The position numbers and the translations under genes are program-made. Positions 995 through 23,489 of a DNA stretch of 23,797 nucleotides are shown here, one piece after another; position 1 is the stretch's first letter; each line of letters opens with the position of its first letter. The stretch spans positions 1 through 23,797 of IMG/VR virus record IMGVR_UViG_3300008459_000402, one strand, 5' to 3'. The stretch comes from a virus. The notes beneath the pieces are model-generated. The model saw nothing but the letters and a program-made list of their open reading frames with translations. It was not told the origin of the DNA and searched no databases.

Positions 995-1652
995 TTAGGA
1001 GCCTCCTTGTGCCTGTTTAGCCCAAAACTCACGCTCCCATTGATCTACCACGGCGTCACCCGTACTGCTGGGTCCGTGCTGTTCAATGATAACGGGGGGC
1101 GCGTTTAGCTGTTCCCATTGTTCCGCGCTCACGGACAAGAGCCAACGCTCCAAGCGGTCCGCGTCACCCAAGCTGGGCTTCAACGGGTCAAAGCGGCTCG
1201 GCTCAAGTGGGGGCAAGGTCGCTTGAAGTGACGGCCACTCGGGACGCGCTCGGGTCCGCCGCACTCGCTCCCAAAGTTGCGCGAAACCATGCCGCGCTGT
1301 GGCGCTCACACTCCCCTCTGAGCGCAAACAACAGCTCGTCATCCTCTGCCGCCCATGTCGCCACCCACTCAGGCATATCGCGCAGTTGCACGGACACAAG
1401 CGCCAGCGCCAAACAACGCGCCTGCGAGTACTCCGACAAGTGCGCCCACGGGGCACCCGCAAGCACGGCGGCGCGGCGGTCAATGCTCATGCGCTCGTCC
1501 CCGTTGGGCACACGGGACACAAGCGCCCCCGTGTGCTTTACCCCATCAGGAGCGCGATACGAGATAGTGAAACGGACCTCACGCGGCACAAGTGGCGTCT
1601 CCTCAGAGGAACGCTCAACGGGGGCTTGCTCACTTAGCTTGCGTAGGTCCAT
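995..1652 (-). CDS. Tail assembly chaperone G-T fusion made by programmed frameshift
   Basis: This is the long form of the tail chaperone. It is read from the ATG at 1652 in the frame of protein G, then shifts frame at the C-run (1209-1213) just before the TGA at 1205-1203. It continues in a second frame to the TAA at 997-995. The extension adds about 70 residues (from LEPSRFDPLK to WAKQAQGGS) and gives a product of about 219 aa. The extension frame has no convincing start codon or ribosome binding site of its own. It begins where G ends and stops one base before the tape measure ATG. In lambda-like, Mu-like and most long-tailed phages the G/G-T pair sits between the tail tube and tape measure genes and chaperones the tape measure. 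The existence of the fusion is inferred from this arrangement. The shift needed is -2 or +1, not the common -1. Confidence 0.72.
1203..1214 (-). promoter_or_regulatory. Probable ribosomal frameshift site (C5 run before TGA)
   Basis: On the minus strand the end of G reads GCC CCC ACT TGA in frame. The downstream frame reads TTG CCC CCA CTT GAG. A proline tRNA on the in-frame CCC can slip back two bases onto another CCC with perfect pairing, giving ...A-P-P-L-E-P. It can instead slip forward one base onto CCA, giving ...A-P-L-E-P. A -1 shift leads to the wrong frame. Tail-chaperone shifts of -2 are known in Mu-type phages. Which of the two occurs here cannot be told by eye. Confidence 0.6.
1203..1652 (-). 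CDS. Tail assembly chaperone G (unshifted form)
   Basis: This is a 149-residue protein starting MDLRKLSEQAPVE and ending SSDLAPT. It lies between the tail tube gene (7-base gap) and the tape measure gene, the fixed position of the G-type tail chaperone. The middle part (AAVLAGAPWAHLSEYSQARC) and the helical MPEWVATWAAEDDELLFALRGE segment suit a small helical chaperone. I see no diagnostic motif, so the call rests on synteny and on the overlapping second frame. The ribosome binding site before ATG 1652 is weak (a GTGAG-like stretch), so initiation may depend on coupling to the tube gene. Most ribosomes would end at the TGA at 1205-1203 and make this short form. A minority would shift to make G-T. 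Confidence 0.75.
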   Translation of the reverse strand: MDLRKLSEQAPVERSSEETPLVPREVRFTISYRAPDGVKHTGALVSRVPNGDERMSIDRRAAVLAGAPWAHLSEYSQARCLALALVSVQLRDMPEWVATWAAEDDELLFALRGECERHSAAWFRATLGASAADPSASRVAVTSSDLAPT

Positions 1653-1659
1653 GTCTCAC

Positions 1660-2076
1660 TTACTCTCTCTCGTCGTACAGACGGCGGGCTTGGAAGCTCG
1701 CGTTCGTGGTCACAATGCTTCCTGCTTGCACAGTCCAGCTCCGTGACTCCGCGCGGCACCCCTCAACACGCCAAATGAGTTGGTCCGACACCTGGTCATA
1801 CACTTCCATGGTGATTTCGGGGAAGTTGATGACCTCCACCGTGCCACCACGGGGGATGAGCCCGAGGTCCTTGAGGCTCTGCCCCGAGATACGCACGAAG
1901 GCCGCCTGCACGGACACCGCGCGCCCCACAGGCACGATCTCCTTGGAGTCAATGTCGCCCAACACATCCACGCGCTGGAGAGCAATCTGCTCTGACGCGG
2001 ACACATTGGAGGCGTACCCAATCTCGTTGCCGTTCACGATGAGCTTGGCGCGCGCGCCACTCAGTACATTCGCCAT
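1660..2076 (-). CDS. Tail tube protein of a contractile tail
   Basis: A 138-aa protein beginning MANVLSGARAKLIVNGN. It polymerises into the inner tube of the tail through which DNA passes. It is encoded right after the sheath and right before the tail chaperones, the normal place for the tube gene. The pattern of beta strands is visible (KLIVNGNEIGYASNVSASE, then RAVSVQAAFVRISGQ, then TVEVINFPEITMEVYD), and the size (about 140 aa) is usual for myovirus tubes. A clear AAGGAG lies upstream of the ATG at 2076 and overlaps the stop region of the sheath gene, so the two should be translated in step. The family call is from synteny plus the N-terminal signature and is fairly secure. Confidence 0.85.
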   Translation of the reverse strand: MANVLSGARAKLIVNGNEIGYASNVSASEQIALQRVDVLGDIDSKEIVPVGRAVSVQAAFVRISGQSLKDLGLIPRGGTVEVINFPEITMEVYDQVSDQLIWRVEGCRAESRSWTVQAGSIVTTNASFQARRLYDERE

Positions 2077-2086
2077 GATTTACTCC

Positions 2087-4054
2087 TTAGAAACGCGCCA
2101 CGGAGGCGGTGATGCGGATGAAGTTCAGGGGCTCCACCGCCGCCACGGTGTAGTTGACTCGCACCGTGTCCCCAAGGTCCTCAAGCACCACATCCTTGAA
2201 CGCCTTGATCACGCCATCAAGCACCTGGCGGTTCAGGCGCGCGGTCACAATCCCCGTGAGGCGCGCGGCGGTCAAGCCCACATTGCCAACACCGATGAAC
2301 GGGTCAAGGGCGCCACGCAGGTCACGCACGCTCGCGTTGATGGACTCGTTGGCGCTCACCTCTGAGTAAATGGGGTTGTCGTCCCTGAGCCAAGTGGTCA
2401 CGCTACGCTCCACACGCCAGCCAAGAGGACCACGCGACAAGACACACACGCCCTTGCTGATAGCATCGCCCGCGTCACGGTTCGCGTCCCACAGTTGGAG
2501 CGAGTCCACGATGTTGGGCTCCTTGCGCGTGAGAGGCGTTGCAACGGGTGTCCCCGCCTGCATCGAGGCAAGCATGAGCGCGAGCCACTTGGGCTCAAGG
2601 GTGCGCGTCACGCCCTGCGGGTCAATGTGCTTAATCTGCTGACCCACAAGCGCGAGGTTGCGGTCATTCAAGCTCTTGGTGATAGCGTGGAGCGCGGTGA
2701 GGCTCTGTGAGCCCTGTGCGCCAAGCCACGCGTTCCGCTCACGCCCTGCGAGCGCCGCGAGGCGCAGGTGGGCCTTGACCGCACCAAACACGCTCACATC
2801 ATCCGACCAAGGCACAAGGATCTGAAGGTCTGAGGACTCAATGAGGGCAAGCGCCGCGGTCCAATGTGACAAGGTAGTGGCGCTACTCGCGCCCCCGCTC
2901 ATCAGCGAGGTGAGCGTGCCGCCCTCAGTCTGCTGTTCCACGGAAGCCACGCCACCCGTTGCGCGCTCCACGCTGACGAGGCGCGAGCCCGCCAAAGCGG
3001 AAAGGATCTCGGCGGCGTCACAGCGCAGGGTCACCAGGTAAGACTCGCCCTCAATGTTGCTTGAAGCCAAGAGGTCAAAGTCATCAGCCTCGTACTCCTT
3101 GCCTGCAAGGTAGCTCGCCACCACATGAGGCAGGTTGTCCAACGCGCTCACAAGCTCACGCAGGGACGAGTAATCAGCGGGGGCGAGGTTCAAGCTACCC
3201 GACACCTGCACGCTCCCCGTGTACGCGGTGTGGGTAGTGGTCGCGGAGATGCTAGAGATAGAGCTAAAGGCGCTCGTGGTCTGTGCCGTGTTGACCCCTG
3301 CGCTAAAGGTCTTGACCTGCGTGAGCGCGGCGCCCGCGAGGTCAAGCCCCACGATAGTGACCACGACTGATGCCGTGTGTGCCGTGCTAGAGAGGGACAC
3401 GCTCAAGGTCGCGTTGCTCACCATGTCGCTCACATCCAGGCTCGCGCTCCCCGCGCTCATAGCCTGTGACTGGCTCCACGAGTACAAGACGCCCGAGTCA
3501 CGGCTTGCCTCAAGGGTCACAGCGGAGAACAGGGACCCGTCGTAGTACACGGACGCCACATTCCCGCTCTCAATCCCCTCGTACTCCTCCACCACGCCAT
3601 CACGGCTCACGGTCACATTGAGCGGGGCAGGCACGGACACGCCCACATTCGCAAGGCTCACCTGCGTGCGGTTGCCCTTGGAGCCCCACACCGAGGACTT
3701 GAACACAAGCGCGTCATCCCCGTTCGCGTCCACGCACACAAGCTGGGCCTGCGTGTTCGGGGTGACATTGAGGAGCGTGAGCGAGGCTACGCCAGCGGGC
3801 ACGCGCTCATCGAGCGAGGGGCTGAACGCCACCTTGCCAATGTGAGCCAGCTCGCGGTCACTCGCGTCATACTCCACAAGCGCCGAGGCGCTAGTGAAGG
3901 TCAACGGCTCATTCTGCTCAAAAGTGGGGAACGAGCCCACAAGCGCGAGGTTCCCCGTGCTTGGGTTTTGACCACCAAGCGCGGAAGCGTCCACCTCCGC
4001 GTACACGGCGGGGCGGTAAATCTTGAGCCCGTTTAGGTTCAGCGTGCTCGGCAT
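2087..4054 (-). CDS. Contractile tail sheath protein
   Basis: A 655-aa protein. The N-terminus (MPSTLNLNGLKIYRPAVYAE) and the final ~80 residues (PFIGVGNVGLTAARLTGIVT, later VLEDLGDTVRVNYTVAAVEP) have the form of phage tail sheaths, whose C-terminal domain makes the inter-subunit mesh along the tail. The terminal strand FIRITASVARF is typical. Between about residues 115 and 330 lies a long Ser/Thr/Val-rich beta segment, which makes the protein larger than many simple sheaths (often about 400-500 aa). This is probably one or more surface domains. The gene has a good AAAGGAG ribosome site before ATG 4054 and is followed at close range by the tube gene. It is the best evidence that the phage is a myovirus. 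Confidence 0.92.
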   Translation of the reverse strand: MPSTLNLNGLKIYRPAVYAEVDASALGGQNPSTGNLALVGSFPTFEQNEPLTFTSASALVEYDASDRELAHIGKVAFSPSLDERVPAGVASLTLLNVTPNTQAQLVCVDANGDDALVFKSSVWGSKGNRTQVSLANVGVSVPAPLNVTVSRDGVVEEYEGIESGNVASVYYDGSLFSAVTLEASRDSGVLYSWSQSQAMSAGSASLDVSDMVSNATLSVSLSSTAHTASVVVTIVGLDLAGAALTQVKTFSAGVNTAQTTSAFSSISSISATTTHTAYTGSVQVSGSLNLAPADYSSLRELVSALDNLPHVVASYLAGKEYEADDFDLLASSNIEGESYLVTLRCDAAEILSALAGSRLVSVERATGGVASVEQQTEGGTLTSLMSGGASSATTLSHWTAALALIESSDLQILVPWSDDVSVFGAVKAHLRLAALAGRERNAWLGAQGSQSLTALHAITKSLNDRNLALVGQQIKHIDPQGVTRTLEPKWLALMLASMQAGTPVATPLTRKEPNIVDSLQLWDANRDAGDAISKGVCVLSRGPLGWRVERSVTTWLRDDNPIYSEVSANESINASVRDLRGALDPFIGVGNVGLTAARLTGIVTARLNRQVLDGVIKAFKDVVLEDLGDTVRVNYTVAAVEPLNFIRITASVARF

Positions 4055-7498: not shown

Positions 7499-8923
7499 TC
7501 AGACCGTGGTGTCCAGCATGGAGCTGGTGGCCGTGATGCCCGCGTTCTGCAAGACCCACATCTTGTTGGGGACCTTGACGATGGGGGACCCGAACAGCAT
7601 GAGGAGGAAGGGCTTGCTGGTCGCCACCTCGGCGAGGGGGCGGCGGAAGAAGTCAAGCAGGCGCGCGAACTCAAGCACCGAGGGGTCGTGCTGGACGAAC
7701 ACGATCTTGCTGGTGTTGGGGCGGACGCCGTTGCGGTCCACGAACACGGTGGCGCCGCTCGATGCCTTCTTGATCTCGCCAATCAGCGCGGCGTCAGCGG
7801 CAACACCGCCCGCCTCGGTGCGGTAAATCTTGTAGAACACCGCATCAGTCGCGGCGGCGATGGTGAGGGTCACCTTGTCGCCAGCGGCCACGGTGACCGC
7901 GGAGCTGTTGATGGCGGCGCTGAAGCCATCGTTGTTGACCGCCACGATGCGGTAAATGTACGCGCCCGCGTCAGCCGCAACGAACTTGGAAGCCGCGTCA
8001 GAAGCCGCCACGGCGCTGGTGAGCGTGGCGCTCGCAGGGGCCGAGGTGGACGAGGCGGCGGAGGGGGCCTTGTAGGCGTTGAACAAGAACGGAGCCGCCT
8101 TGACGGGCACGGGGCCGTAGGGGCTCATGATGTTCAGATCCATGGCGCCGAAGGTGATGCCATCGGCGGCGCGGGAGACGCTGAACTGGTCATGGCGACC
8201 GAACTGCACCGCAAACTTGATAAGCTCCGCGTGGATGCGGGGCTCCACATAGATGCAGTCAGGGCGACCAAAGCGAGGGGCGCTCTGAAGCTCCGCAAGG
8301 ACCTCTTGGAGGAGGCGGGGCGTGGGGCTCTTGCCCGCGAGGTCAAAGGTGTTCGAGCCGCTGTTGTGACCCTCAATCTGCTTGATGATGCCGTTGAAGG
8401 CGAGGGGGTTCACATCCTCGTCCGCGTGCCACAGCGAACGCTCCAGCTTCTGAAGGAGGCGCATGGTGCCGCGCTCGGTCTCGGCGGCAATCGCGTTGGA
8501 CTGGTTGCCAATGAGGCCCACGAGCGAGCCCACATCGGTGACCTCGCGGCGCTCTGCCAGGTACTTGATACGCACATTCTTGCGCTCGTACTCGGAACGG
8601 TTGGTCACGCCCGCAGAGCCCTCAGAGATAAAGGCCTCAAGGTCAAGGCCGTGGTCATTGATGACCGCGTACTCGTGGAGGGTGTTGGTCACCTGCACCT
8701 TGGGGATCGCGGGCCACAGGACCAGCTCCTTCATGGTGTAGGTGGCAGAGGCGAGGGTGTTCTCAATGGACTGAGGGACGAGGGGGCTAAGGCTCCCTGC
8801 ATCGCCGCCACTAGTGCCAGCGGGGGTCTGATACCCAGCGTTCGCGCTCTTGCGGAGAGCGTTGTTGAGATTCGCAAGGTCCTCGACATTGACGAGGGAG
8901 TTGACCTCGGGGATGTTGTACAT
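7499..8923 (-). CDS. Major capsid protein with inserted Ig/FN3-like domain
   Basis: A 474-aa protein with AGGAG before ATG 8923. It lies downstream of protease and scaffold genes as HK97-fold capsid genes do. Capsid-like features include the N-terminal helix, LVPQSIENTLASAT, the long ERGTMRLLQKLERSLWH helix and a GRPDCIYVEPRIHAELI strand/helix. The C-terminal core strands (SKPFLLMLFGSPIVKVPNK) are also present. Between about residues 285 and 405 lies an extra domain. It starts with an Ala/Ser/Pro linker (APSAASSTSAPASA) and has YIYRIVAVNNDGFSA, VTLTIAAATDAVFYKIYRTE and ATVFVDRNG, the strand pattern of fibronectin-III or Ig-like domains. This could decorate the capsid surface. The call as major capsid is from position, size and this architecture. 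Confidence 0.85.
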   Translation of the reverse strand: MYNIPEVNSLVNVEDLANLNNALRKSANAGYQTPAGTSGGDAGSLSPLVPQSIENTLASATYTMKELVLWPAIPKVQVTNTLHEYAVINDHGLDLEAFISEGSAGVTNRSEYERKNVRIKYLAERREVTDVGSLVGLIGNQSNAIAAETERGTMRLLQKLERSLWHADEDVNPLAFNGIIKQIEGHNSGSNTFDLAGKSPTPRLLQEVLAELQSAPRFGRPDCIYVEPRIHAELIKFAVQFGRHDQFSVSRAADGITFGAMDLNIMSPYGPVPVKAAPFLFNAYKAPSAASSTSAPASATLTSAVAASDAASKFVAADAGAYIYRIVAVNNDGFSAAINSSAVTVAAGDKVTLTIAAATDAVFYKIYRTEAGGVAADAALIGEIKKASSGATVFVDRNGVRPNTSKIVFVQHDPSVLEFARLLDFFRRPLAEVATSKPFLLMLFGSPIVKVPNKMWVLQNAGITATSSMLDTTV

Positions 8924-9583: not shown

Positions 9584-9640
9584 GGGGTTCTCCTGTGTCG
9601 GGATCTTTTTAATGGTCAAGTATTTTTTATTTATTCGCAA
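9584..9640 (-). promoter_or_regulatory. AT-rich promoter-like patch before the scaffold gene
   Basis: Within a very GC-rich operon this stretch is rich in A and T on the minus strand (AAATAAAAAATACTTGACC, then ATTAAAAAG). It includes a TTGACC (+ positions 9614-9619) that could be a -35 box below an UP-like A/T tract. No good -10 box follows at 16-18 bases, so a phage sigma factor or an activator may be needed. The patch covers the end of the protease gene and the scaffold leader. It may be an internal promoter or simply a leader with low structure. Confidence 0.35.
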
Positions 9641-10631
9641 CTTTGCGTGCGTGCTCCATCACGGACTTGCACAGCGCGTCCATCTGCGCCTTGCTCATCT
9701 CGGGGAACTTAGCCTCAAGCATCGCGCGCACCTGTGCCGCCGTCACGCGCTTCTGCTTGGGGGCAGGTGACGCGGGCGTGGTGGCGCTCGACAGCTTAGG
9801 CGCTAGGCTCTGCTCCATGAGCGCACTCAGCGAGGCGTCCGCGTCAGGGATAGCAGGTGACTGGTAGCCCGCCGCCGCCGCGCCCATCGAGCGTGCAATC
9901 AGCTCAAGGTTCGTGTGCGGGTTCACGGGGGCGCTGGTGATAGCCACATTGAGCACGCGAGCCTTGAGCACCTTCTTGGGGCTCACCGAGTCACGCTGTA
10001 GCACCTGCCCCTCAATACTGAAACCAAGTGAGCGCGGGGCGCCTGCCTTCTGTATCGCGTACGCGGTCTCGTATATCTCGCGCGCAAGGGGCTTGCTCAA
10101 GTAGATCTCGCCCTCCACACGGGTCTTGTGCTCGTCCACAGGCTCCACGCGCGTGGGGTGTCCAAGGACCGCCTGCGGCCCCTGCTGGTGCTCAAAGTTG
10201 AACCACCCGTGTTGCAGGAAATAGGACCAATCAAGCCCGTCCTGCGAGATGGACTCGCCTTCAAAGTCCTTGTCATCAGTAGAACAGATACCGCCTATCT
10301 TAGCCACCACGGGCGCATCACCCGCCTCCGCCTTGCTCAAGGTCTCCTCGCTCAAGGTCACGGGGGCCCAGCGTGAAAAGAACTCAAGCCCGCCCTTGCT
10401 TGTAGCCTCCTCCACATCCGCCTTGAAGTCGTGCTCTTGGAGCCACTTGGCGAACTCCGCCGCGCTCATCTTGGACGAGTCAGCGCGGATGCTCTGCACC
10501 TCGCTCTTACCCTCCTTGAGTCCAAGGATCATGGAGAGCCCCGCAGGTGCGCCCTTGGGCGTGAAGCGGCGGAACTCGTCATACAAGCTAGGCTCGGTCT
10601 GCCTCGCGGCGTGCTCATTCGGGAACGGCAT
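9627..10631 (-). CDS. Prohead (capsid maturation) protease
   Basis: A 334-aa serine protease expected to cleave scaffold and capsid proteins during head maturation. The core shows ICSTDDKDFEGESISQDGLD, then WFNFEHQQG (likely catalytic His148), a RVEGEIYLSK strand, and SLGFSIEGQV with likely nucleophile Ser205. This H...S arrangement is that of phage prohead proteases (T4 gp21 / HK97-like fold). The first ~75 residues carry a region with SIRADSSKMSAAEFAKWLQE that is also seen ahead of such proteases in other phages. The C-terminal ~100 residues are an Ala/Pro/Lys-rich tail with a helix (VRAMLEAKFPEMSKAQMDAL). The ATG directly follows the Mu F-like stop (TAAATG), with GAGGAG upstream. Confidence in the family is high. 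The exact subfamily is not certain. Confidence 0.88.
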   Translation of the reverse strand: MPFPNEHAARQTEPSLYDEFRRFTPKGAPAGLSMILGLKEGKSEVQSIRADSSKMSAAEFAKWLQEHDFKADVEEATSKGGLEFFSRWAPVTLSEETLSKAEAGDAPVVAKIGGICSTDDKDFEGESISQDGLDWSYFLQHGWFNFEHQQGPQAVLGHPTRVEPVDEHKTRVEGEIYLSKPLAREIYETAYAIQKAGAPRSLGFSIEGQVLQRDSVSPKKVLKARVLNVAITSAPVNPHTNLELIARSMGAAAAGYQSPAIPDADASLSALMEQSLAPKLSSATTPASPAPKQKRVTAAQVRAMLEAKFPEMSKAQMDALCKSVMEHARKVANK

Positions 10632-11675
10632 TTAGGGCTCCTCAGTCTCGGGTGGTCGCTCAAGCGCCCCCGTGGGGGTCACTCTGTATCCATCAGGCAC
10701 ATATAGTGTGTCACACCTGCACTTAGGGTGCATGGGGAACACGGTGGGGAGCCATTGAGCGCGGACCCTCCCCACATTGACCCCGTTGCCCACGAGGTCC
10801 GACACAAGGAACACGCGGGGGGCTCCGTTCTCGGTGAACGCGCCCAGGCAATAGTCACACGCTCCGCTCTCAGGTATGCGCGCCACACGCGCCCCCTCCC
10901 CTCCAAGCTCAAGCGCCGAGAGTACGCGCCCCTCGTTGTGCGCCGCCTGTAGCTCGGTCTGTGCAATCCTGAGCCAGTTGTGCGCGTATGTGCCCACACG
11001 GTCACCAAACGCACCTGCAAGGGCGCGCGCGTCCCGTGTGGTGGCGAGCGTGTTGGCCAGCTCCTCACGGATGGCTTGGAGCGTGTTTGCGCGCCTCACG
11101 GGGTCCACCTCACGCGTTATCTGCTCCCCCTGCCACGCCTCCGCCGCCACACGGGTCAAGTCCTCCGCAAGCTCGTTGCCGAGCCCCCGTGCATACTCGC
11201 CCGCACGCGTCACAGCGCGCGCGTACGCGCCCCTCTCCGCCGTGCTCATCCACGCGGGCGCGGTCACCTGTACCGCCCCGCCTTGTGGCGTGGGTACAGG
11301 CACCTCAACGGTCACCGTGAGCCCAGGCTCCATCTGCGCCTCTGCCTCGGCGCGCGTGCGCGTGCGTAGGTCCTCCACGCGCGCCTGCACCAACGGGCTC
11401 CATTGCTCCATAGTCCAATCGCGCATTGACGCACGCTGGGCAGGTGTCGCGCGGTCCATAATCGCCCCCGCGTGCGCTATGTACTCGTACGGGTCAAGGT
11501 TCTCGACCCTCCACCCCTCAATCGCTTGGGGGTCAAGTACGCCTGCCTCCACGAGCTCTTGGACCCTCTCAGGGGGGAGCCCCGCGCGCTCGGCACCAAG
11601 GAACTCGACCAAGAACGCGTCATTATGTAAGCGCGTGACGCGCTCCGCCTCTTGCAAAAGCTCAAGCTGGGTCAT
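10632..11675 (-). CDS. Mu F-like / SPP1 gp7-like head morphogenesis protein
   Basis: A 347-aa minor head protein. The diagnostic part is at the C-terminus: RIAQTELQAAHNEGRVLSAL (about 236-255), then CDYC (C273, C276) and FPMHPKCRCDTLY (H316, C319, C321). This CxxC...HPxCRC zinc-knuckle layout defines the Mu F / SPP1 gp7 group, which helps head assembly and is packaged in the capsid. The N-terminal 200 residues are mostly helical. It overlaps the preceding gene by four bases (ATGA at 11672-11675) and is followed directly by the protease. Its place between portal and protease is normal for this family. Confidence 0.85.
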   Translation of the reverse strand: MTQLELLQEAERVTRLHNDAFLVEFLGAERAGLPPERVQELVEAGVLDPQAIEGWRVENLDPYEYIAHAGAIMDRATPAQRASMRDWTMEQWSPLVQARVEDLRTRTRAEAEAQMEPGLTVTVEVPVPTPQGGAVQVTAPAWMSTAERGAYARAVTRAGEYARGLGNELAEDLTRVAAEAWQGEQITREVDPVRRANTLQAIREELANTLATTRDARALAGAFGDRVGTYAHNWLRIAQTELQAAHNEGRVLSALELGGEGARVARIPESGACDYCLGAFTENGAPRVFLVSDLVGNGVNVGRVRAQWLPTVFPMHPKCRCDTLYVPDGYRVTPTGALERPPETEEP

Positions 11676-12738: not shown

Positions 12739-12762
12739 CTGTGGCTCCTTGGGGCGGGTCTC

Positions 12763-13071
12763 TTAGTACACGGTCTCGGGGTCCGTGGGGGGCGTGAAGG
12801 GCGTGAGGTCAATCGCTGGAGTGACCGTGTACTTGAGCCCATCATAAAACGCGCTCATGTACTGCGCGCTGTTCGTGTATGCCATGCTGTTCGTTAGCCC
12901 CTCAGAGCCTATATAGTACCCTGGGAGCCTATCTAGCACCTCTTTGAACGCGGCAATCAAGCCCGCGTGCCCCTCGTAAGTGGCGCGTGTGTCCTCTAAA
13001 GGGCTACTCGTCCAGGTGAGCAACACGCGCGCGCGGAGCCCCTTGTACTTGATCTCTATCGTGTGCTTCAT
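12763..13071 (-). CDS. Hypothetical protein (102 aa)
   Basis: I do not recognise this protein. It begins MKHTIEIKYKGLRARVLLTW, two probable beta strands, followed by a helix (GHAGLIAAFKEVLDRLPGYY) and a Tyr/Asn/Ser-rich middle (NSMAYTNSAQYMSAFYDGL). It ends in a Pro/Thr tail. It shares a four-base overlap (ATGA) with the zincin-motif gene before it and may work with that protein. It is less extreme in GC than the surrounding head genes, like the neighbouring part of the zincin gene, which suggests the two arrived together. Confidence 0.55.
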   Translation of the reverse strand: MKHTIEIKYKGLRARVLLTWTSSPLEDTRATYEGHAGLIAAFKEVLDRLPGYYIGSEGLTNSMAYTNSAQYMSAFYDGLKYTVTPAIDLTPFTPPTDPETVY

Positions 13072-14516
13072 GGTTGCGTGTACCCCTTCAAAATGGCGTA
13101 GGTCAGCAAGTAGTGATGCGGGTCAGCGGCGGCAAAGTCTGCAATCGCTTTGATCTGTATGTCGGGCTCGGTGGAGGTGAAAAAGTTTTCTACGCCCATA
13201 CTAACAAGTTCACTCCCTCCGTCTGCGTATAGTTTCCCTGTGTAGTTGTTCGTGTATTGATCCTCAAAATACATCTCTCTGCCCATGTACCTTTTATATT
13301 TGCCTTGCCGAATGCGCGTTGCGTGTGTCAATGTCACAGCGCGTTCTATTCCTGCGTAAGCGGGCCCGTGCTGTTCTAGCGTGTGCGCTAGCTCATGCGC
13401 GGCGGTTTTTAGTGTTGACGCCGTACATAGTGTAAGTGTGCCCTTATTGCACGACTCCCGAAGTACCTGGGAAGGCATCTGCATTTCTATATGCGTTATT
13501 TGGTGCGTGCGCGCTGGATATGCCCTGCCTAGTATATCCTCTAAATGCGCTAATGTACCCAATCCGCTAAACTGCTCCGGATTAGTTGGCGTACTAGGTG
13601 CGGGTTTGTGTCTAGCGTGAAGCGTGTTTGTAGGTGTTGATTTATGTAAAAAATCGGCGTTTGCGGCGCTTATTGCCGTTAAAAACTCGTGGTGTGCGGC
13701 TTTTGTATAATGCTCTACTTTTTCGCGGCGCTCTTTACCGCTCATTTCAGCGGCGGGGTGAGCCGCTAACGCCTCCTTCCTAGCCTGCTTATAAACAGCT
13801 ATTGCGGAGAGTACGGCGGCGTTATCTTGCGCCGCGCGCTCTAACGCTTGATTGTACTGCTCGCAATAGTCTGCGATGTCACCCGCTGTTAGCTTGTGTA
13901 ATCTAGATCTAAAAATCATATCGGGGTTTATGAGGGCGCTAACGCGGCTCTTTGAAAAGCTGGCGATTGCGGCGGCCACCTTGTCAGGGGTCACGCGCGC
14001 CGTCTCAAGTACCTGCCGAGCAAATGCACCTAGTTTGTCGGCTTCCGTTGTGACCGTGCCCAGTCTATCCAAGCGAGCCTGCTCACGCGCAATCTGCTTC
14101 TCGGATGCACCGCTGGCGCGTAACTCCGAAATCACCTTAGCCTGCTTCTCGCGCTCGCTCTGCAAGGCGGCAGAGATACCGTGCGCCGCGTCTAGCTTGG
14201 AGAGCAGGTCACGCTTGCTCATGGTCTCCTTTTCACCCTTGCGTGGTCCGTCATCGTACTCAACGGTCACCTTGTCTCCGTCAACGGACTTCACATGAGC
14301 GTGTACCTCGCTCCCCTTGTCCGTGCCTAACATGAAAGCGGCACCAACGGTCACATCGTCCTCATGGAGCGCGTGCTTGCCTCGCGCCGTGTGGGTGACC
14401 TTGTAGATGTACCTGTAGCGGAGCTTACCACCTGACGAGTAGGGGATACGCTTGATGTACTTGTGACCCGCCGCCTTAAACAGCAAGTCCACCCAGGCAG
14501 AGAAGGTCGTAAACAT
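13068..14516 (-). CDS. Two-part head-module protein with zincin metallopeptidase motif
   Basis: A 482-aa protein. ATG 14516 is preferred because GGAG sits 8 bases upstream. A TTG at 14522 is possible but too close to it. The N-terminus has HKYIKRIPYSSGGKLRYRYI, a short basic/aromatic module found at the head of several phage proteins, then strands with DGDKVTVEYDDG and a coiled coil (about 108-155). The C-terminal part carries HELAHTLEQH (H374, E375, H378), the HExxH zinc-binding and catalytic core. Downstream GGSELVSMGVE offers E436 or E443 as third ligand, as in gluzincins. Its place between portal and Mu F-like genes suggests a virion or co-injected peptidase. The DNA coding the C-terminal two thirds is clearly richer in A/T than its surroundings. 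The substrate is unknown. Confidence 0.65.
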   Translation of the reverse strand: MFTTFSAWVDLLFKAAGHKYIKRIPYSSGGKLRYRYIYKVTHTARGKHALHEDDVTVGAAFMLGTDKGSEVHAHVKSVDGDKVTVEYDDGPRKGEKETMSKRDLLSKLDAAHGISAALQSEREKQAKVISELRASGASEKQIAREQARLDRLGTVTTEADKLGAFARQVLETARVTPDKVAAAIASFSKSRVSALINPDMIFRSRLHKLTAGDIADYCEQYNQALERAAQDNAAVLSAIAVYKQARKEALAAHPAAEMSGKERREKVEHYTKAAHHEFLTAISAANADFLHKSTPTNTLHARHKPAPSTPTNPEQFSGLGTLAHLEDILGRAYPARTHQITHIEMQMPSQVLRESCNKGTLTLCTASTLKTAAHELAHTLEQHGPAYAGIERAVTLTHATRIRQGKYKRYMGREMYFEDQYTNNYTGKLYADGGSELVSMGVENFFTSTEPDIQIKAIADFAAADPHHYLLTYAILKGYTQP

Positions 14517-14518
14517 AC

Positions 14519-16096
14519 TCAAAGCTCCACGGACACGCGCACGCGGCGTGCCTTTGTCACGGTTTCCGTTGTGAAGTCATCACCCTCGTCCTCCATGTCC
14601 TCGCCATCAAAGCCAGCGCCCTCCTCGGGCTCCTGCTCCACGGGCTCCTGCTCCACGGGCTCCTGCTCCCCCTCACCCATGCTCATGGCGGTGATGTAGG
14701 TTTGGTTCAAGATGATGTCGCCCCCCTTCTCCAAGGGCTCAAGCCCGTTGGAGGCGCGCACCTCGTTGATTGTCATGTACGAGGACACGCGCTCCTTGTC
14801 CGCCTCCAGCTTGCTCTTGGCGTCCTCAGAGTCGAGCCCCACGAACTCAAAAGACAGCTCGGGCGCGATTGGGTGAATAATCCAGCGATTCAGCCACCCT
14901 TGCACCTGGCGCAAGAGAGGGCGGAGCCCGCGGTCCTTGCTCGCGAGTATCCTCTGCTCAGGCCCGCCTTGTGAGAGGGAGCTTGTGACGCCCTCACTCC
15001 CAAACACGAAGCCAAGCTCCGCAGGGTCAATCTGATAAATGGCGCACGCGATCTTGGTGAGGTAGCCCATCCAAGTGCTGTACCCCATCTCCTCGGCGCT
15101 GGAGCCCATGTTCACGCTGGACACCTCCTCGTTGGAGTCGGGGTCAAGTTGCAGGATAGGCGTGCGCTTGGCTTGGTGCGCGCCACTCAGCATCGCGTAA
15201 AAGTCACGGCGGAACGCGCGGAACAGTTGCGGGCTCATCTTGGACTTGACCGCCAAAATACTGTTCACATGGATCCCGTTCACGAAGTTTGAAGCGTTGT
15301 AAGTCTCCGCGTTCACAAGGTAAGTGACCGTGCGGACAAGCTCCTCAAGCTCAGGGAAGCCGTAGCCGTGCGCATATATCCAAGTGCGCGGGCGCCTAAT
15401 CGCAAACGCCATTGAGTCCGCGTCCCACTCAGCCACCTTCTTGTTGTTTATCACCTGCACGAACGCGCCCTCGCTCCAGTCGCGCCGCCCCTCCTTGCGC
15501 TCCTCCGTGCTAGTCGCCGCGCGCCGTATCGTGCTTGCATCCACGGGCACGAAGCCGTTGATCTTGCCGTTGCGCGTCCGCAGTATCTCGAAGCACGCTT
15601 GGTCAAAGGTCAACGAGTCACGCAGTATCATGCGTACAAACGCCTCAAAGTCATACGCGCCCCCGTACTTGTAGCCGTCACCACAAGTCTCCAGCCACCG
15701 CGTCATCTCGTTTATCTGTGCCTTGAGCGCGTCCGTCATCTCCGCGCTCTTGTCGCGTGGACGCAGGACAAAGCCCGCCGAGAACTTGTCCGCCTGTGGG
15801 TTGCAGAACTCCGCCACCTGGTTGATACGCGTCTGAATAATCGAGGACACAACGGGCACGCGCGCCATCTGCGCGAGTACCCCATAATCAAGCCCAAGCG
15901 TGCCCTCGTGCGTGGTGTCGCGGAAGCTGTCCCCGTACGCCGCCGTAGAGTCCCACGGGTTCAGGTCATGCGCCGTGGGGATCTTGGAGTACTCGCCCAC
16001 GCTCCCCTTGAGCGCCTTTTGAATGACCTCCTCCGCCTCCACGGCAAGTTGGGCCATCATCTCGTAGTAATCAGGTGTTGGGTGCGGTGCCTTCAT
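14519..16096 (-). CDS. Portal protein
   Basis: A 525-aa protein forming the dodecameric ring through which DNA enters and leaves the head. Portal features in order: AQMARVPVVSSIIQTRINQV (helix after the clip region), a FVRMILRDSLTFDQACFEIL block, a NGFVPVDASTIRRA strand, FPELEELVRTVTYLVNAETY, SQLFRAFRRDF-like stem helices, and a terminal YMTINEVRASNGLEPLEKGG. The last pattern ('T.NE.R...GL.P...GD') is very typical of portals. The C-terminus carries an acidic tail with three EQEPV-type repeats and GEDMEDEGDD. GAGG precedes ATG 16096. It lies at the promoter-near end of the head genes, as usual after the terminase, though no terminase is in the window. Confidence 0.9.
   Translation of the reverse strand: MKAPHPTPDYYEMMAQLAVEAEEVIQKALKGSVGEYSKIPTAHDLNPWDSTAAYGDSFRDTTHEGTLGLDYGVLAQMARVPVVSSIIQTRINQVAEFCNPQADKFSAGFVLRPRDKSAEMTDALKAQINEMTRWLETCGDGYKYGGAYDFEAFVRMILRDSLTFDQACFEILRTRNGKINGFVPVDASTIRRAATSTEERKEGRRDWSEGAFVQVINNKKVAEWDADSMAFAIRRPRTWIYAHGYGFPELEELVRTVTYLVNAETYNASNFVNGIHVNSILAVKSKMSPQLFRAFRRDFYAMLSGAHQAKRTPILQLDPDSNEEVSSVNMGSSAEEMGYSTWMGYLTKIACAIYQIDPAELGFVFGSEGVTSSLSQGGPEQRILASKDRGLRPLLRQVQGWLNRWIIHPIAPELSFEFVGLDSEDAKSKLEADKERVSSYMTINEVRASNGLEPLEKGGDIILNQTYITAMSMGEGEQEPVEQEPVEQEPEEGAGFDGEDMEDEGDDFTTETVTKARRVRVSVEL
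14627..14671 (-). repeat. Three 15-bp tandem repeats in the portal C-terminus
   Basis: Three back-to-back copies of GGGCTCCTGCTCCAC (+ strand, the last copy differing at the end) encode the EQEPVEQEPVEQEPEE tail of the portal. Such in-frame repeats expand and contract by slippage, so the tail length may vary among relatives. Confidence 0.85.
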
Positions 16097-16099
16097 GTT

Positions 16100-16759
16100 T
16101 TAGACCTCAAAGTCCTCGGGGAGCCAGCGGTACGCGTGCATGATGTACGCCTCGCCCTCTTTGGCAACACGCGCAAAAGGGCGCCTGCGCCTCACAACAC
16201 CCTCACCCCAGCCACCTGTGCCAAGTGTCCCGTGCGCGTTGCCCTCCACGGTCTCCGCGTACCCCTCCGTGATACTCAAGCTCGTGCAGAGCGTGATATG
16301 TGAGCCCCACTTCTTGGCTCCCTTTTTACCCACAACGAGCACATCACCCGCGCGTACATCATCAAGTGACACCTTGCGCGGCGTGCCCGAGCAGAACGCG
16401 AACAGGCGATAAGTGGAGGCACAATGCTTGTGGCGGATCTCGCGCTTTAGTGCCTGGTAGCAGTACGCCATAAACGCGCCACACCACTCAAAGCCCCCAA
16501 GCTCCAGCTTCCCCGTGTTCATGTAAGGCGTGTCCTTGGGCCAATCCAATCCCTCACGGATGAACGCAAAAATCCGCAGGGAGCTGTGGGGCTTGCTCTG
16601 TTGTGGGTCAAGCGCCGTGTACTTGTCCCCCTTCTTGGCAAGCAAGGTGCCCGCGTCATCCACATATGCGCCCCTCGGTGGCTCCATACAGCCTAAGCTG
16701 TGCTCCAAGAGGCCGCGCGCTATCGCCTCGCGCACGCGGGGGGTTGGTGTAGTGCTCAT
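16100..16759 (-). CDS. Endolysin-like cysteine peptidase (CHAP/NlpC type)
   Basis: A 219-aa protein with the order of a papain-like cell-wall amidase. FEWCGAFMAYCYQAL carries the probable nucleophile Cys93. DVRAGDVLVVGKKG is followed by WGSHITLCTS with probable His154, and TVEGNAHG gives the third polar residue (Glu172 or Asn174). This WCGAF...GDV...GHITL...EGN pattern is seen in CHAP and NlpC/P60-type endolysins and tail lysins. There is no signal peptide or membrane segment, so it would need a holin to leave the cell, or it may be a virion peptidase. No holin is visible next to it. It has GGAG before ATG 16759 and lies immediately upstream of the portal gene. Confidence 0.75.
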   Translation of the reverse strand: MSTTPTPRVREAIARGLLEHSLGCMEPPRGAYVDDAGTLLAKKGDKYTALDPQQSKPHSSLRIFAFIREGLDWPKDTPYMNTGKLELGGFEWCGAFMAYCYQALKREIRHKHCASTYRLFAFCSGTPRKVSLDDVRAGDVLVVGKKGAKKWGSHITLCTSLSITEGYAETVEGNAHGTLGTGGWGEGVVRRRRPFARVAKEGEAYIMHAYRWLPEDFEV

Positions 16760-18229: not shown

Positions 18230-18373
18230 ATGGACCCGCGCGCCCTCTACGAGATCCTTAATCCCCCCAGCGACACGGACGCGTGGAGCGAGTGGGACGA
18301 ACTCACCCCTCCCCTTGAGGATGAGGAGTTTGAGGACTTTGAGGATCCCGAGGAACAAGACCAAGCTCACTAA
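18230..18373 (+). CDS. Very acidic 47-residue small protein
   Basis: A short plus-strand ORF with a good AGGAG 5-9 bases before ATG 18230 and a TAA at 18371-18373. It begins MDPRALYEILNPPSDTD and ends in a Glu/Asp block (EDEEFEDFEDPEE). Eighteen of 47 residues are Asp or Glu, against one Arg and no Lys. Its last 71 bases overlap, on the opposite strand, the 3' end of the sigma-factor-like gene. Small acidic phage proteins often mimic DNA or bind basic host proteins, but no family is recognised here. Reality rests on the ribosome site, the otherwise empty 186-base region ahead of it, and its composition. Its codon use is less G/C-biased at third positions than the neighbours. Confidence 0.5.
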   Translation: MDPRALYEILNPPSDTDAWSEWDELTPPLEDEEFEDFEDPEEQDQAH

Positions 18374-18893
18374 GCACCTCCGTCATCTCCGCACGGCGCG
18401 CGCGCACCTTGTGTAACTTGACCCCATGCTCCCTCACACACTCGCTCATGTTCGCGCCCTCCATAAGTGACACGAAGCACGCCTCAAAACGCATGGCACG
18501 CGCCACCGCGTGAACCTCGCGCTCCAAGATAAGGTCCTGCACGCGCGCCTCCTCGCTGGGCTGTGGCGCCTGACGCATGACCGCGAGGTCCCCGCTCTCA
18601 GGTGCCACCTCCGCCTCGTACCCGAACCTCGTGCGCCGCGTCCCCTCGTCCCTCAACGCGTTCAGCGCCACGCGCCGCGTCACCTGCGCGCACCACCCCG
18701 CCACATTCCCCTCCGTGTACAGCTCCGCCTTGCTCAACATCCGCTCAAGGGCCTCACTTAGAATGTCCTCCGCGGTCACACAGCCCCGCGCATACTGGGA
18801 AGCCACCCCACGCAAGTGACGCAGGCTCGTGCGCTCCGCAAGGTACGCCCTCACAGGACACACGGGGACAGCGGAAGGCGCGCGCCGCCTCAT
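18303..18893 (-). CDS. Sigma-70-family (ECF-like) RNA polymerase sigma factor
   Basis: A 196-aa protein starting at ATG 18893 (MRRRAPSAVP), overlapping the previous gene by four bases (ATGA). Residues about 40-87 read AEDILSEALERMLSKAELYT then GWCAQVTRRVALNALRDEGT. This matches the region 2 pattern of ECF-type sigma factors ('aeDi.qea..r.......a Wl..i.rn.aln.lR') that binds the polymerase and melts the -10 element. Residues about 118-170 (LILEREVHAVARAM, ANMSECVREHGVKLHKVRAR) fit region 4 with a helix-turn-helix, though the end is diverged. A phage sigma factor would turn host polymerase to phage promoters, perhaps to the late genes on the same strand. The extra Pro/Gln-rich C-terminus has no clear role. 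Confidence 0.6.
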   Translation of the reverse strand: MRRRAPSAVPVCPVRAYLAERTSLRHLRGVASQYARGCVTAEDILSEALERMLSKAELYTEGNVAGWCAQVTRRVALNALRDEGTRRTRFGYEAEVAPESGDLAVMRQAPQPSEEARVQDLILEREVHAVARAMRFEACFVSLMEGANMSECVREHGVKLHKVRARRAEMTEVLSELGLVPRDPQSPQTPHPQGEG

Positions 18894-19246
18894 TCCTCGT
18901 CCCCCTCCCCCGCAGGGCACAAGTCCAAGCACCCATCCACCACCACAGGCTCACCCCCCTCCACGCCCGCTTGCTCCAAGTACCACCGCGCGTCCACAAC
19001 CACAATATCAGCACGCTCCGCGCGCTCTCGCTCCTCGCGCTCCAGCGCCTCAAGCTCCCTGTTCAAGTACCACCGCGCCTTCTCCAAGTCCTCAATCCGC
19101 GTCCCCGAGTCCTTACGCCCAGCGCGCGCCACATACTTGACCACATTTCCAAGGCAGAAGCCCAAGCCCCACGCCTCAATGGCTACAATCACTTCCACCC
19201 CACTCGCCTTGTGGTAGTGGCTCGGGCTGTTCACCGCGCCGCTCAC
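18890..19246 (-). CDS. DUF3310-type phage protein
   Basis: A 118-aa protein with a GTG start at 19246. AAGGAGG sits seven bases upstream and the start overlaps the previous stop (GTGA). The ATG at 19291 has no such site. The N-terminus VNSPSHYHKASGVEVIVAIE, then FCLGNVVKYVARAGRKD and EDLEKARWYLNREL, is the signature of the DUF3310 family (also called SaV-like), common among phages and found near nucleotide-metabolism genes. Its biochemical role is not settled. The C-terminal third adds a Glu/Arg-rich helix and a repeated ARWYL word (VVVDARWYLEQAGVEGGE) beyond the usual domain, ending in an acidic tail. It lies between an HTH protein and the sigma factor and is translationally coupled to both. 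Confidence 0.85.
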   Translation of the reverse strand: MSGAVNSPSHYHKASGVEVIVAIEAWGLGFCLGNVVKYVARAGRKDSGTRIEDLEKARWYLNRELEALEREERERAERADIVVVDARWYLEQAGVEGGEPVVVDGCLDLCPAGEGDEE

Positions 19247-19954: not shown

Positions 19955-20386
19955 ATGAGCCAAGAACTCCGCGCCGCCCTCGATGCCCTGAGAGCGAGCC
20001 TCCCCGCCCCCCATTGCCTAGAGCTGGTACTTGCCCGCACGCGCACCATCACCCTGTGGGCCATGTCCCCCTCGCCCGTGCAACACTCAGCCTATGAGCG
20101 CGCCATCGCCACAATGGCCCAGGTACACGAGACCACACGCGACCAAACACTCCTGTGGGCAAGCGGACTCCCCACAAGTCACCCGCTCCATGTGCGCCAC
20201 GGACACATCGTCACGCGCCGCTGGCTCCTGTGGAGCCACAGTCCAATCTCCCCCCGTGACCTCAACCTCCACGGGGACACGCTCCGCGCGTTCGTCCTCG
20301 CCATGGACTCGTGGGGCTCGCGCTCGCGCCCCAAGCTCCCCGATGACCTGGAGGCGTGGCTCGCGCCCGTGGTGCGCGTTGTATGA
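19955..20386 (+). CDS. Hypothetical protein (143 aa)
   Basis: First gene of a plus-strand, translationally coupled trio. It begins MSQELRAALDALRASLPAPH and contains ELVLARTRTITLWAMSPSP, HIVTRRWLLWSHSP and a C-terminal RAFVLAMDSWGSRS. It looks like a small mixed alpha/beta protein rich in Trp (six). I do not recognise a family and see no catalytic motif. GGAG lies about 10 bases before ATG 19955. Its TGA overlaps the next start (ATGA at 20383-20386), so it is likely made together with the first HTH paralogue and may be its partner. Confidence 0.6.
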   Translation: MSQELRAALDALRASLPAPHCLELVLARTRTITLWAMSPSPVQHSAYERAIATMAQVHETTRDQTLLWASGLPTSHPLHVRHGHIVTRRWLLWSHSPISPRDLNLHGDTLRAFVLAMDSWGSRSRPKLPDDLEAWLAPVVRVV

Positions 20387-21087
20387 GTAGCACTTACGCA
20401 CAAGACCTCAACCGCGCGTGCCTCGCGTTCCTCCGCGCCGAGTACATAGACTCCCAAACACACGCTAGAGGCAACGATAACCGCGCACGCGCGGGACGCC
20501 CACTCCGAGCACGCTCACTCTCCCCCGCCCAGGTACTCGCGCAACGCGTACTCAAGCACGCGGACCCGTTCACACTACCTGATGACGAGCCCACAGAGAC
20601 CAATACGCACCCAGGCACCACGGACACCACGAGCACCACAGACACCACGGACACCGCGACTATCCAACAGCGCGTACGCCTGATGCGCGCACAAGGACTC
20701 CGCCCCGTGGACATCGCACGCGCACTCGGGGTGAGCCCCAACACCATCCAATACTGGCTCTCAGACAGGTTCTCCGAGGGCGCCGCGCCCATCCGCAAGT
20801 ACACACGCAAGGCACACATGACACACGCACCCGTTGAACCTGCCCCCACGGAACACGCACCCGTTGAACCCGCCCCCACTTCACACTCCACTTCACACTC
20901 CACTTCACAGCCCGAGCGCGTGAACACCGCGACCCCCGCCCCAAGTGACGCCCTCGCCCAGCTTCTAGAGATCTCGGAGCAGATACGCGCGCTCACCGAG
21001 AAGCGCGAAGCACTGCTTGCACCCCTCCGCGCAGAGCGTGAAGCCCTGCGAGCCCGTCTCGCCTACCTGGAGGCCGTTCTCAAGTGA
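20383..21087 (+). CDS. HTH protein, paralogue A, with repeats and coiled coil
   Basis: A 234-aa protein starting at ATG 20383. It opens with STYAQDLNRACLAFLRAE, shared with the next gene, and has DPFTLPDDEPTET, also shared. Residues about 92-128 (TIQQRVRLMRAQGLRPVDIA then ALGVSPNTIQYWLSDRF) are a clear helix-turn-helix of the Trp-repressor/transposase-like type. A Pro/Thr/His repeat region follows (HAPVEPAPTE, HAPVEPAPTS, then HSTS copies). The last 45 residues (EQIRALTEKREALLAPLRAE and LRARLAYLEAVL) form a strong coiled coil, so it is probably an oligomeric DNA binder. It could tether HTH heads to a partner through the long flexible linker. The exact role is unknown. Confidence 0.68.
   Translation: MSSTYAQDLNRACLAFLRAEYIDSQTHARGNDNRARAGRPLRARSLSPAQVLAQRVLKHADPFTLPDDEPTETNTHPGTTDTTSTTDTTDTATIQQRVRLMRAQGLRPVDIARALGVSPNTIQYWLSDRFSEGAAPIRKYTRKAHMTHAPVEPAPTEHAPVEPAPTSHSTSHSTSQPERVNTATPAPSDALAQLLEISEQIRALTEKREALLAPLRAEREALRARLAYLEAVLK
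20823..20909 (+). repeat. In-frame repeats in paralogue A linker
   Basis: Two near-identical units of 30-bp period (20823-20849 and 20853-20879, encoding HAPVEPAPT) are followed by a 12-bp period (CTTCACACTCCA, two copies and part of a third) from 20879. These make a flexible linker between the HTH and the coiled coil and are likely to vary in length. Confidence 0.85.
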
Positions 21088-22307: not shown

Positions 22308-22400
22308 GTAATAGTAAAAATAAATAGTGATTATTTCACACCGCAGACTCGCCCCGCCTCCCGTGTTCTCGTGCCCACCACACACACCACAGGAGGCACG

Positions 22401-23489
22401 ATGCCCGTCACTCTATCAGCCAAGACCCTAGCAGACGCCGCCGCCCGCGTGGCAAAGTTCACGCACTCCAGCTCCCTCGCCCCCGTGCTCTCATGCACCT
22501 TGTTGGAGGTCAACCAGGGAGCCGTGACCCTCAGTGCCACCGACACGACATACGCCGCGCGCGTGCGTGTCCCCTGTGACTCCGCCGAGCGGTGGCGCGT
22601 GTGCGTGGACGCCAAGAAGCTCGCGCAGGCCCTCAAGGCTCTCAGCGGCGAGGTCACCTTGGCCACGGGCACAGGTGAGCTGATCCTCAAGAGCGGGCGC
22701 GCGAGACTCGCCCTCAAGGTCACGGACGCGGACGAGTACCCCGAACTCCCAAGCATCACCGCCGCGCCCCAAGAGCTACACGCGCCCACGCTCGCACGCG
22801 CCCTAGAGGCTGTCCTCCCCGCCTCTAGTCAGGACTCCACGCGCCCCAACATCGCCACCGTGTACCTAGACAGCCACAACGGGCACCTGGTGACCGTTGC
22901 CACCGATGGACACCGCCTCCACAGCGCGGTGACCGCGCTCTCGTGGGACGCGCCCGCGCTTATCGGTTCGGAGGGAGCCAGGCACTTTGTAAACGCGCTC
23001 AAGGGCGCAGGCACCTGCACGCTCGCGCGCGAGGGGTCTAGCCTCCTGCTCCGCGCAGGTGACACCGAGGTCCACGCGCGCCTAAGCGCGGAGCGCTTCC
23101 CCCCGTGGCAGTCCGTGGTCCCCAAGGACACGCCCGTGGCCACGCTCACCTTGCACGCCCAGGAACTGGCTGACGCGCTCAAGCGCGCCAAGCTCGCCGC
23201 CTCCGAGGACCTGCCCGCCGTGTCCCTCTCCGTGGAGCACGGAGAGCTTGTGCTACGCGCCACAGGGGAGCGCGCCCAAACGGAGGAGCGCGTGCCCACC
23301 GAGACCCAAGGGGACCTCCCCCTCACGGGGCTCGCGCTGGAGTACGCGCAGGAGGCGCTTGTGGCGCTGGGCGCGGAGCAGGTCACCTTGACCTCGCGTG
23401 GCACGCGCTCCGCGGTCGTGTTCGCCCCCGTGGACACCCCCGAGGGCGCGCCCCAGGTCTCGTGCGTGGTCATGCCCCGCCGTATCTAG
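22401..23489 (+). CDS. dnaN: DNA polymerase III beta-like sliding clamp
   Basis: A 362-aa protein, the same length class as bacterial beta clamps (about 366 aa), which ring DNA and hold the polymerase. ATG 22401 (MPVTLSAKTLADAAARVAKF) has AGGAGG 4 bases upstream. Three clamp domains can be followed. The first includes LEVNQGAVTLSATDTTYAAR and LILKSGRARLALKVTDADEY. The second includes VATDGHRLHSA (residues 167-177), the family's signature, preceded by SSQDSTRPNIATVYL. The third ends with FAPVDTPEGAPQVSCVVMPRRI, a match to the usual C-terminal 'MPMRL'. It is flanked by AT-rich islands. Phage clamps of the bacterial type are less common than T4 gp45-type ones. It implies that this phage recruits a host-type polymerase III or its own clamp-binding polymerase. 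Confidence 0.95.
   Translation: MPVTLSAKTLADAAARVAKFTHSSSLAPVLSCTLLEVNQGAVTLSATDTTYAARVRVPCDSAERWRVCVDAKKLAQALKALSGEVTLATGTGELILKSGRARLALKVTDADEYPELPSITAAPQELHAPTLARALEAVLPASSQDSTRPNIATVYLDSHNGHLVTVATDGHRLHSAVTALSWDAPALIGSEGARHFVNALKGAGTCTLAREGSSLLLRAGDTEVHARLSAERFPPWQSVVPKDTPVATLTLHAQELADALKRAKLAASEDLPAVSLSVEHGELVLRATGERAQTEERVPTETQGDLPLTGLALEYAQEALVALGAEQVTLTSRGTRSAVVFAPVDTPEGAPQVSCVVMPRRI

Follow-up and report, generated by a model that had tools for sequence, protein, structure and literature searches.

The window, by which we mean the whole 23,797-nucleotide stretch of DNA analysed, is a 23.8 kb fragment of a virus and carries the structural gene cluster of a contractile-tail phage on its minus strand. 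The cluster includes genes for a portal protein (14519..16096; Pfam PF04860, 2.4e-18; phrog_12, 3e-43), a minor head protein encoded separately in a MuF-like slot (10632..11675; phrog_115, 3.2e-9), a dedicated prohead protease for head maturation (9627..10631; phrog_1028, 6.5e-48), the major capsid protein (7499..8923; phrog_752, 2.1e-64) and the tail sheath (2087-4054). Weak matches were found to an endolysin or tail lysozyme-like protein in the region adjoining the portal gene (16100-16759, minus strand; phrog_9589, E 6e-4) and to an RNA polymerase sigma-factor-like protein (18303-18932, minus strand; phrog_1740, 1.5e-6). The region at 20356-21087 gave only a weak repressor-like match, and there was no evidence of an integrase within the 23.8 kb of the fragment.

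Between the portal and minor head genes lies a reading frame (13068..14516, minus strand) that is open from an ATG at position 14516 and encodes a protein of 482 amino acids. Its start is 2 nucleotides past the portal stop codon (an alternative TTG start is found at 14522). The protein comprises an N-terminal module (residues 1–153; 14058..14516, minus strand) and a C-terminal part (residues 154–482; 13071..14057, minus strand) in which a helical linker precedes a zincin-like peptidase domain (residues 292–482; 13071..13643, minus strand). That domain contains a HELAH motif (residues 374–378; 13383..13397, minus strand) and a glutamate, E436 within SELVSMG (13209..13211, minus strand), that is a probable third zinc ligand. 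A short ORF that was absent from the original prediction follows directly (12763..13071, minus strand), overlapping the peptidase gene by 4 nucleotides. Its 102-residue product, which we call the partner and propose to be an inhibitor or immunity-like protein, ends in a conserved C-terminal tail, DPETVY (12766..12783, minus strand).

Ten homologues of the zincin-like part were identified, giving 11 zincin-type members (the window, L002, L003, L015, L021, L027, L049, L050, L051, L052 and L053). Nine of the ten also have visible module sequence; the module is cut in L027, and in L050 the cut lies upstream of the zincin. The original prediction of a zincin motif had named a lack of HExxH conservation as evidence against itself and had pointed to a possible third ligand. 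Both elements are conserved: HExxH is kept in 10 of the 11 members and E436, the likely ligand (numbered E137 in the aligned fragment), in all of them. In the remaining member (L021:8001-9764) RELAY stands in place of HExxH and the third glutamate and the downstream partner are retained; this homologue is, from its sequence, a probable pseudopeptidase.

An AF2 model of the protein built from a 26-row alignment had a mean pLDDT of 87.6 (modeling without an alignment gave 43.5 and was set aside). The HELAH motif is located inside a predicted helix (369–380) and E436 begins another (436–445). Comparison of the model with solved structures using VIA-align gave PPEP-1 as the top match (Z 8.0, rmsd 3.8 over 154 residues; model residues 292–477). 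PPEP-1, a secreted bacterial enzyme, likewise contains HExxH and a distant glutamate, but is only 12% identical to the window protein, which is phage-encoded and lies among head genes. Matches with Z values of about 5 over residues 292–482 included thermolysin, vibriolysin, LasB, ProA, LTA4H and M1 aminopeptidases. A Foldseek search of the PDB with the whole model returned no match below an E value of 1, and the best viral structural match was an uncharacterised phage protein of 527 amino acids (E 2e-6). The model and the conserved motif support a zincin fold, at Z values that are moderate.

The window zincin part had no Pfam match at an E value of 1, a search of PDB sequences with the zincin gave nothing credible, and tblastn searches of 50,697 phage records with the protein, module, zincin or partner yielded a single weak match (E 0.03), between the L053 zincin and a protein of Xanthomonas phage Rb1 annotated as reprolysin-like.

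The N-terminal module, for which Pfam and PHROGs provided no convincing family match, is predicted in the model to form a helix, a KYIKRIP...RYRYIY hairpin, an SH3/Tudor-like barrel and a helical hairpin; structure searches with it returned Tudor/SH3-like matches. Residues 1–153 were found in further viral contigs (10 loci in one search and 39 in another), and a profile search detected the module in more than 40 ORFs, a count that includes several overlapping or near-duplicate loci. The claim that this module is common to other phage proteins is therefore correct, and those proteins have differing C-termini. A search of a genome collection identified only two distant module proteins, both in metagenome-assembled genomes. 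The module is placed at the N-terminus of proteins of ∼210–1100 amino acids and occurs internally in giant ones, the longest of which has 2625 amino acids; in L035, L037, L041 and L043 it lies deep within ORFs of polyvalent size (1800–2600 amino acids).

Apart from the zincin described above, the C-terminal parts that accompany the module include sliding-clamp-like domains (L004, L009, L011, L025, L028, L030 and L050), LPD1 with a HEWGH zincin (L011 and L027), ddrB-ParB (L029, L032 and L049), DarA_C (L036), a methyltransferase (methylase; L007) and others to which no family was assigned. Since one module joins so many different C-termini, it behaves, as judged by sequence comparison, as a tag for exchangeable cargo. 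The window phage encodes a DNA polymerase processivity factor of its own (22371-23489, plus strand; phrog_947, 1e-63), and several related phages have module-tagged proteins with a clamp-like domain at the C-terminus.

Module genes are found among head and tail genes at various places in these clusters, and several contigs hold two or three of them, three being the largest number per phage. In L049 (3363-9300) three module-bearing genes occur in a row, encoding respectively an unknown protein, a zincin (followed by its partner) and a ddrB-ParB protein; the same contig encodes a helicase (230-2206) with matches to both DarB-like and methyltransferase families. The identity of modules between loci averages 0.41. 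Within a phage the modules are often near-identical (0.96 in L023, 0.97 and 0.80 in L049, 0.91 in L051), but in L011, L027, L015 and L026 they share only 34–63% identity, and a single phage-wide receptor for the tag is therefore not universal. A close DNA relative of the window phage, L004 (94–97% identity over parts of positions 1-3010), carries among its tail genes one (L004:5977-7197) that joins the module to a sliding-clamp-like C-terminus; it lies just past the point that corresponds to the left end of the window. A single phage therefore probably has two or more tagged cargoes.

The partner ORF is tied to the zincin rather than to the module. It follows the zincin gene in all 11 members (102–105 amino acids, with overlaps of 4–11 nucleotides; the L051 copy is cut by the contig end) and follows none of 31 other module genes, three of which have some different small ORF next (Fisher p ∼2e-10, or ∼2e-8 with near-identical lineages collapsed). 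All complete partners end in [DE]P..[VI]Y, despite pairwise identities as low as 12%, and outside the partners this ending was seen in none of 5144 stop-to-stop ORFs of at least 60 amino acids in the fetched DNA. Their dN/dS values of 0.06–0.19 indicate that the partners are real, constrained genes. Comparison of the partner with Pfam, PHROG and PDB sequences gave nothing credible, and a search for orphan copies with a subset of partner sequences, of limited reach, recovered only copies behind zincins.

Comparison of the window with L003 defined the unit that is exchanged. The two are nearly the same phage, with 95–98.5% DNA identity outside the cassette. Their blastn similarity stops at position 14058, exactly where codon 153, the final one of the module, ends, and restarts at position 12768, in the final tyrosine codon of the partner; across the C-terminal part, DNA identity falls from more than 90% to about 40%. 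The positions of these two breaks indicate that the swapped unit consists of the peptidase part together with the partner ORF. A match to L049 DNA begins at 12761, just past the partner stop codon, covers the partner and extends into the peptidase and parts of the linker; the L049 module is only 33% identical to that of the window. Across the eight members in which all three parts are available (28 comparisons), the identity of the C-terminal part is correlated with that of the partner (r = 0.87, permutation p = 0.002); the corresponding value for module and partner is r = 0.14 (not significant). The peptidase part and its partner are one exchangeable cassette behind a steadier tag. The match between the two is not a tight one at the catalytic core, since the window and L002 have partners that are 98% identical and zincin parts that are only 57% identical (the break lies near codon 455).

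The strict order of the two genes, the overlap in their translation and the unchanging C-terminal tail would also be compatible with an adaptor for export or a chaperone, which would hold the peptidase part unfolded or bring it into the head, in place of an inhibitor. We regard such a role as unlikely, because module cargoes from the same cluster occur without a partner, which argues that loading through the module needs none, and because the partner varies with the peptidase and not with the module.

The C-terminal part had been singled out originally for a lower GC content than its surroundings, and this difference is confirmed by calculation. Residues 196–449 have a GC content of 0.495 and a GC3 of 0.488. 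For comparison, all 1225 in-frame 762-nucleotide segments of the other genes in the window have a mean GC of 0.629 (s.d. 0.023) and a mean GC3 of 0.795 (s.d. 0.033); the AT-richness is local, in that each of those segments is at or above a GC of 0.587 and a GC3 of 0.701. The first 153 codons of the peptidase gene have values of 0.582 and 0.739, respectively. The protein is a mosaic, as was proposed, of a shared module and a zincin-like part that is exchanged separately.

The further suggestion that the peptidase part is a recent graft stands only in part. The C-terminal part is truly exchanged independently of the module, but its AT-richness is not the mark of a recent event, because low GC and the presence of both halves are common to its relatives and because the partner, although it lies inside the same swapped block, has a near-normal GC3 of 0.777. 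Low GC is widespread among cargo parts in general, with a cargo GC3 below or about equal to that of the module in 20 of 20 loci examined. Homologues with both halves, which the original prediction had listed as evidence against a graft, do weaken a simple graft (ten relatives have the zincin, nine of them with module sequence in view), while the L003 comparison demonstrates recurrent exchange. On these observations of the relatives and the partner we reject a recent single graft as the whole story; what the data show is recurrent exchange of the C-terminal part with its partner.

The same widespread low GC, together with the loss of HExxH in L021, could be taken as a sign that the C-terminal part is an extension that is degenerating or has a structural role, with the module a minor head decoration and catalysis irrelevant. 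We consider this very improbable, because the zincin (dN/dS 0.16–0.22) and the partner are under purifying selection, and because HExxH and E436 persist as described above in proteins that are 25–65% identical to the window copy.

Two groups of phage proteins invite comparison with this locus. Polyvalent proteins, including P1 DdrB and DarA, are described in the survey by Iyer et al. (2017, PMC5512222) as products of virion-cluster genes that join a virion- or DNA-related part to effector domains, with zincin metallopeptidases, of which 12 clades are published, as their commonest domain. The window protein similarly consists of two distinct domains, module and zincin, and is encoded among virion genes, and relatives of its module carry ddrB-ParB, DarA_C and LPD1. 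It differs in its small size (482 amino acids), in its recurrent tag followed by a single enzymatic domain, and in its obligatory downstream partner, which the parts of PMC5512222 considered here do not mention for such a zincin. Its architecture and the domains joined to its module nevertheless suggest that it fits the polyvalent class.

MuF toxins, in turn, are encoded next to the portal, in most cases with a small ORF of immunity type behind them (PMC5576092). The window protein resembles them in its position directly after the portal gene, in its constant N-terminal and variable C-terminal parts, and in the small ORF (under 150 amino acids) that lies directly downstream and moves together with the C-terminus. 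In contrast to the MuF toxins, the minor head protein of the window phage is encoded by a separate gene, and module genes are also found elsewhere in head and tail clusters; MuF toxins come from temperate phages, and the window phage is known here from a fragment with a weak repressor-like match. Neither Pfam nor PHROGs (E 0.1) gave a MuF domain for the protein, and for this reason we do not class it with the MuF toxins.

A precedent for targeting of cargo by an N-terminal stretch is provided by P1 DarB and T4 IPIII, in which such a sequence sends cargo into the head (PMC9024508); for the window module this role is only proposed. The N-terminal 30 residues of DarB suffice for capsid targeting, and neither a consensus of the Dar N-termini nor a signal common to the P1 Dar proteins was found in that study (PMC9024508). 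These targeting sequences are short, under 30 residues in DarB, unlike the module of ∼150 residues described here, which is shared at the level of sequence.

On balance, we favour with about even confidence a reading in which the locus encodes a packaged zincin effector of the polyvalent or Dar type and its cognate inhibitor; packaging, injection, activity, inhibition and the target are what we infer from the observations above. The module (residues 1–153) would act as an address tag that sends various cargoes into the phage head. In the peptidase, H374, H378 and E436 would hold the zinc ion and E375 would serve as general base; the enzyme would enter the host along with the DNA and cleave host proteins, perhaps defence proteins (for a cell-surface target, also raised originally, no support was found here). 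In the virion-producing cell the partner would bind the peptidase and, perhaps by way of the invariant DPxxVY tail, block it, and it would be excluded from the virion or from the newly infected cell. The pair looks like a weapon and its antidote, and the virus may carry it into the host cell.

This reading is favoured because modules accompany hallmark domains of polyvalent proteins and phage cargo (LPD1, ddrB-ParB, DarA_C, methylase and clamp-like domains), and because the C-terminal part and partner are swapped jointly in L003 and the partner is obligatory with the zincin. The L049 match, the correlation of C-terminal part and partner, the low dN/dS of the partner, the location of module genes in head and tail clusters, the zincin neighbours of the confident model and the DarB and MuF precedents speak for it as well. 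Counting against it, L021 has lost both histidines of the motif yet retains its partner, and the structural matches are modest (the best VIA-align Z value being only 8.0, with nothing below an E value of 1 from Foldseek). The near-identical partners of the window and L002 and the unlike modules within some phages weigh on the same side. Immunity systems, moreover, often have orphan copies, which our search, limited as its reach was, did not find.

The location of the gene within the head cluster would also suit an assembly enzyme that, while the head matures, cuts itself or other cargo, with the partner acting as cofactor, timing inhibitor or substrate; autoprocessing has been proposed for polyvalent metallopeptidases, as for P1 DdrB (PMC5512222). 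We judge such a role to be improbable. A dedicated prohead protease is already present, a zincin is absent from most module cargoes, so that processing is no general need, and the swapping of peptidase and partner between near-identical phages is more in keeping with an arms race than with a fixed step of assembly.

A bolder form of the packaged-effector reading, which we put forward as a tentative and rather doubtful possibility, is that the locus belongs to a polymorphic effector system of the phage head that is separate from MuF: a single folded tag of ∼150 residues would bring many enzymes into hosts, and the peptidase version would be silenced by a new family of small inhibitors working through the invariant DPxxVY tail at their C-terminus.

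In this locus the partner gene and the tag that recurs with other cargoes deserve to be followed up, and the module is relevant to how packaging recognises proteins of the polyvalent and Dar types. If the packaged-effector reading is true, the module would be a mark of phage cargo recognisable from sequence, every gene that carries it would be a candidate for an injected effector, and one could try the tag as a means of directing chosen proteins into phage heads. Together the peptidase and its partner are a small pair that lends itself to direct testing; under this reading the partner would represent a new family of inhibitors of metallopeptidases, and the substrate of the peptidase could give a lead to a host defence.
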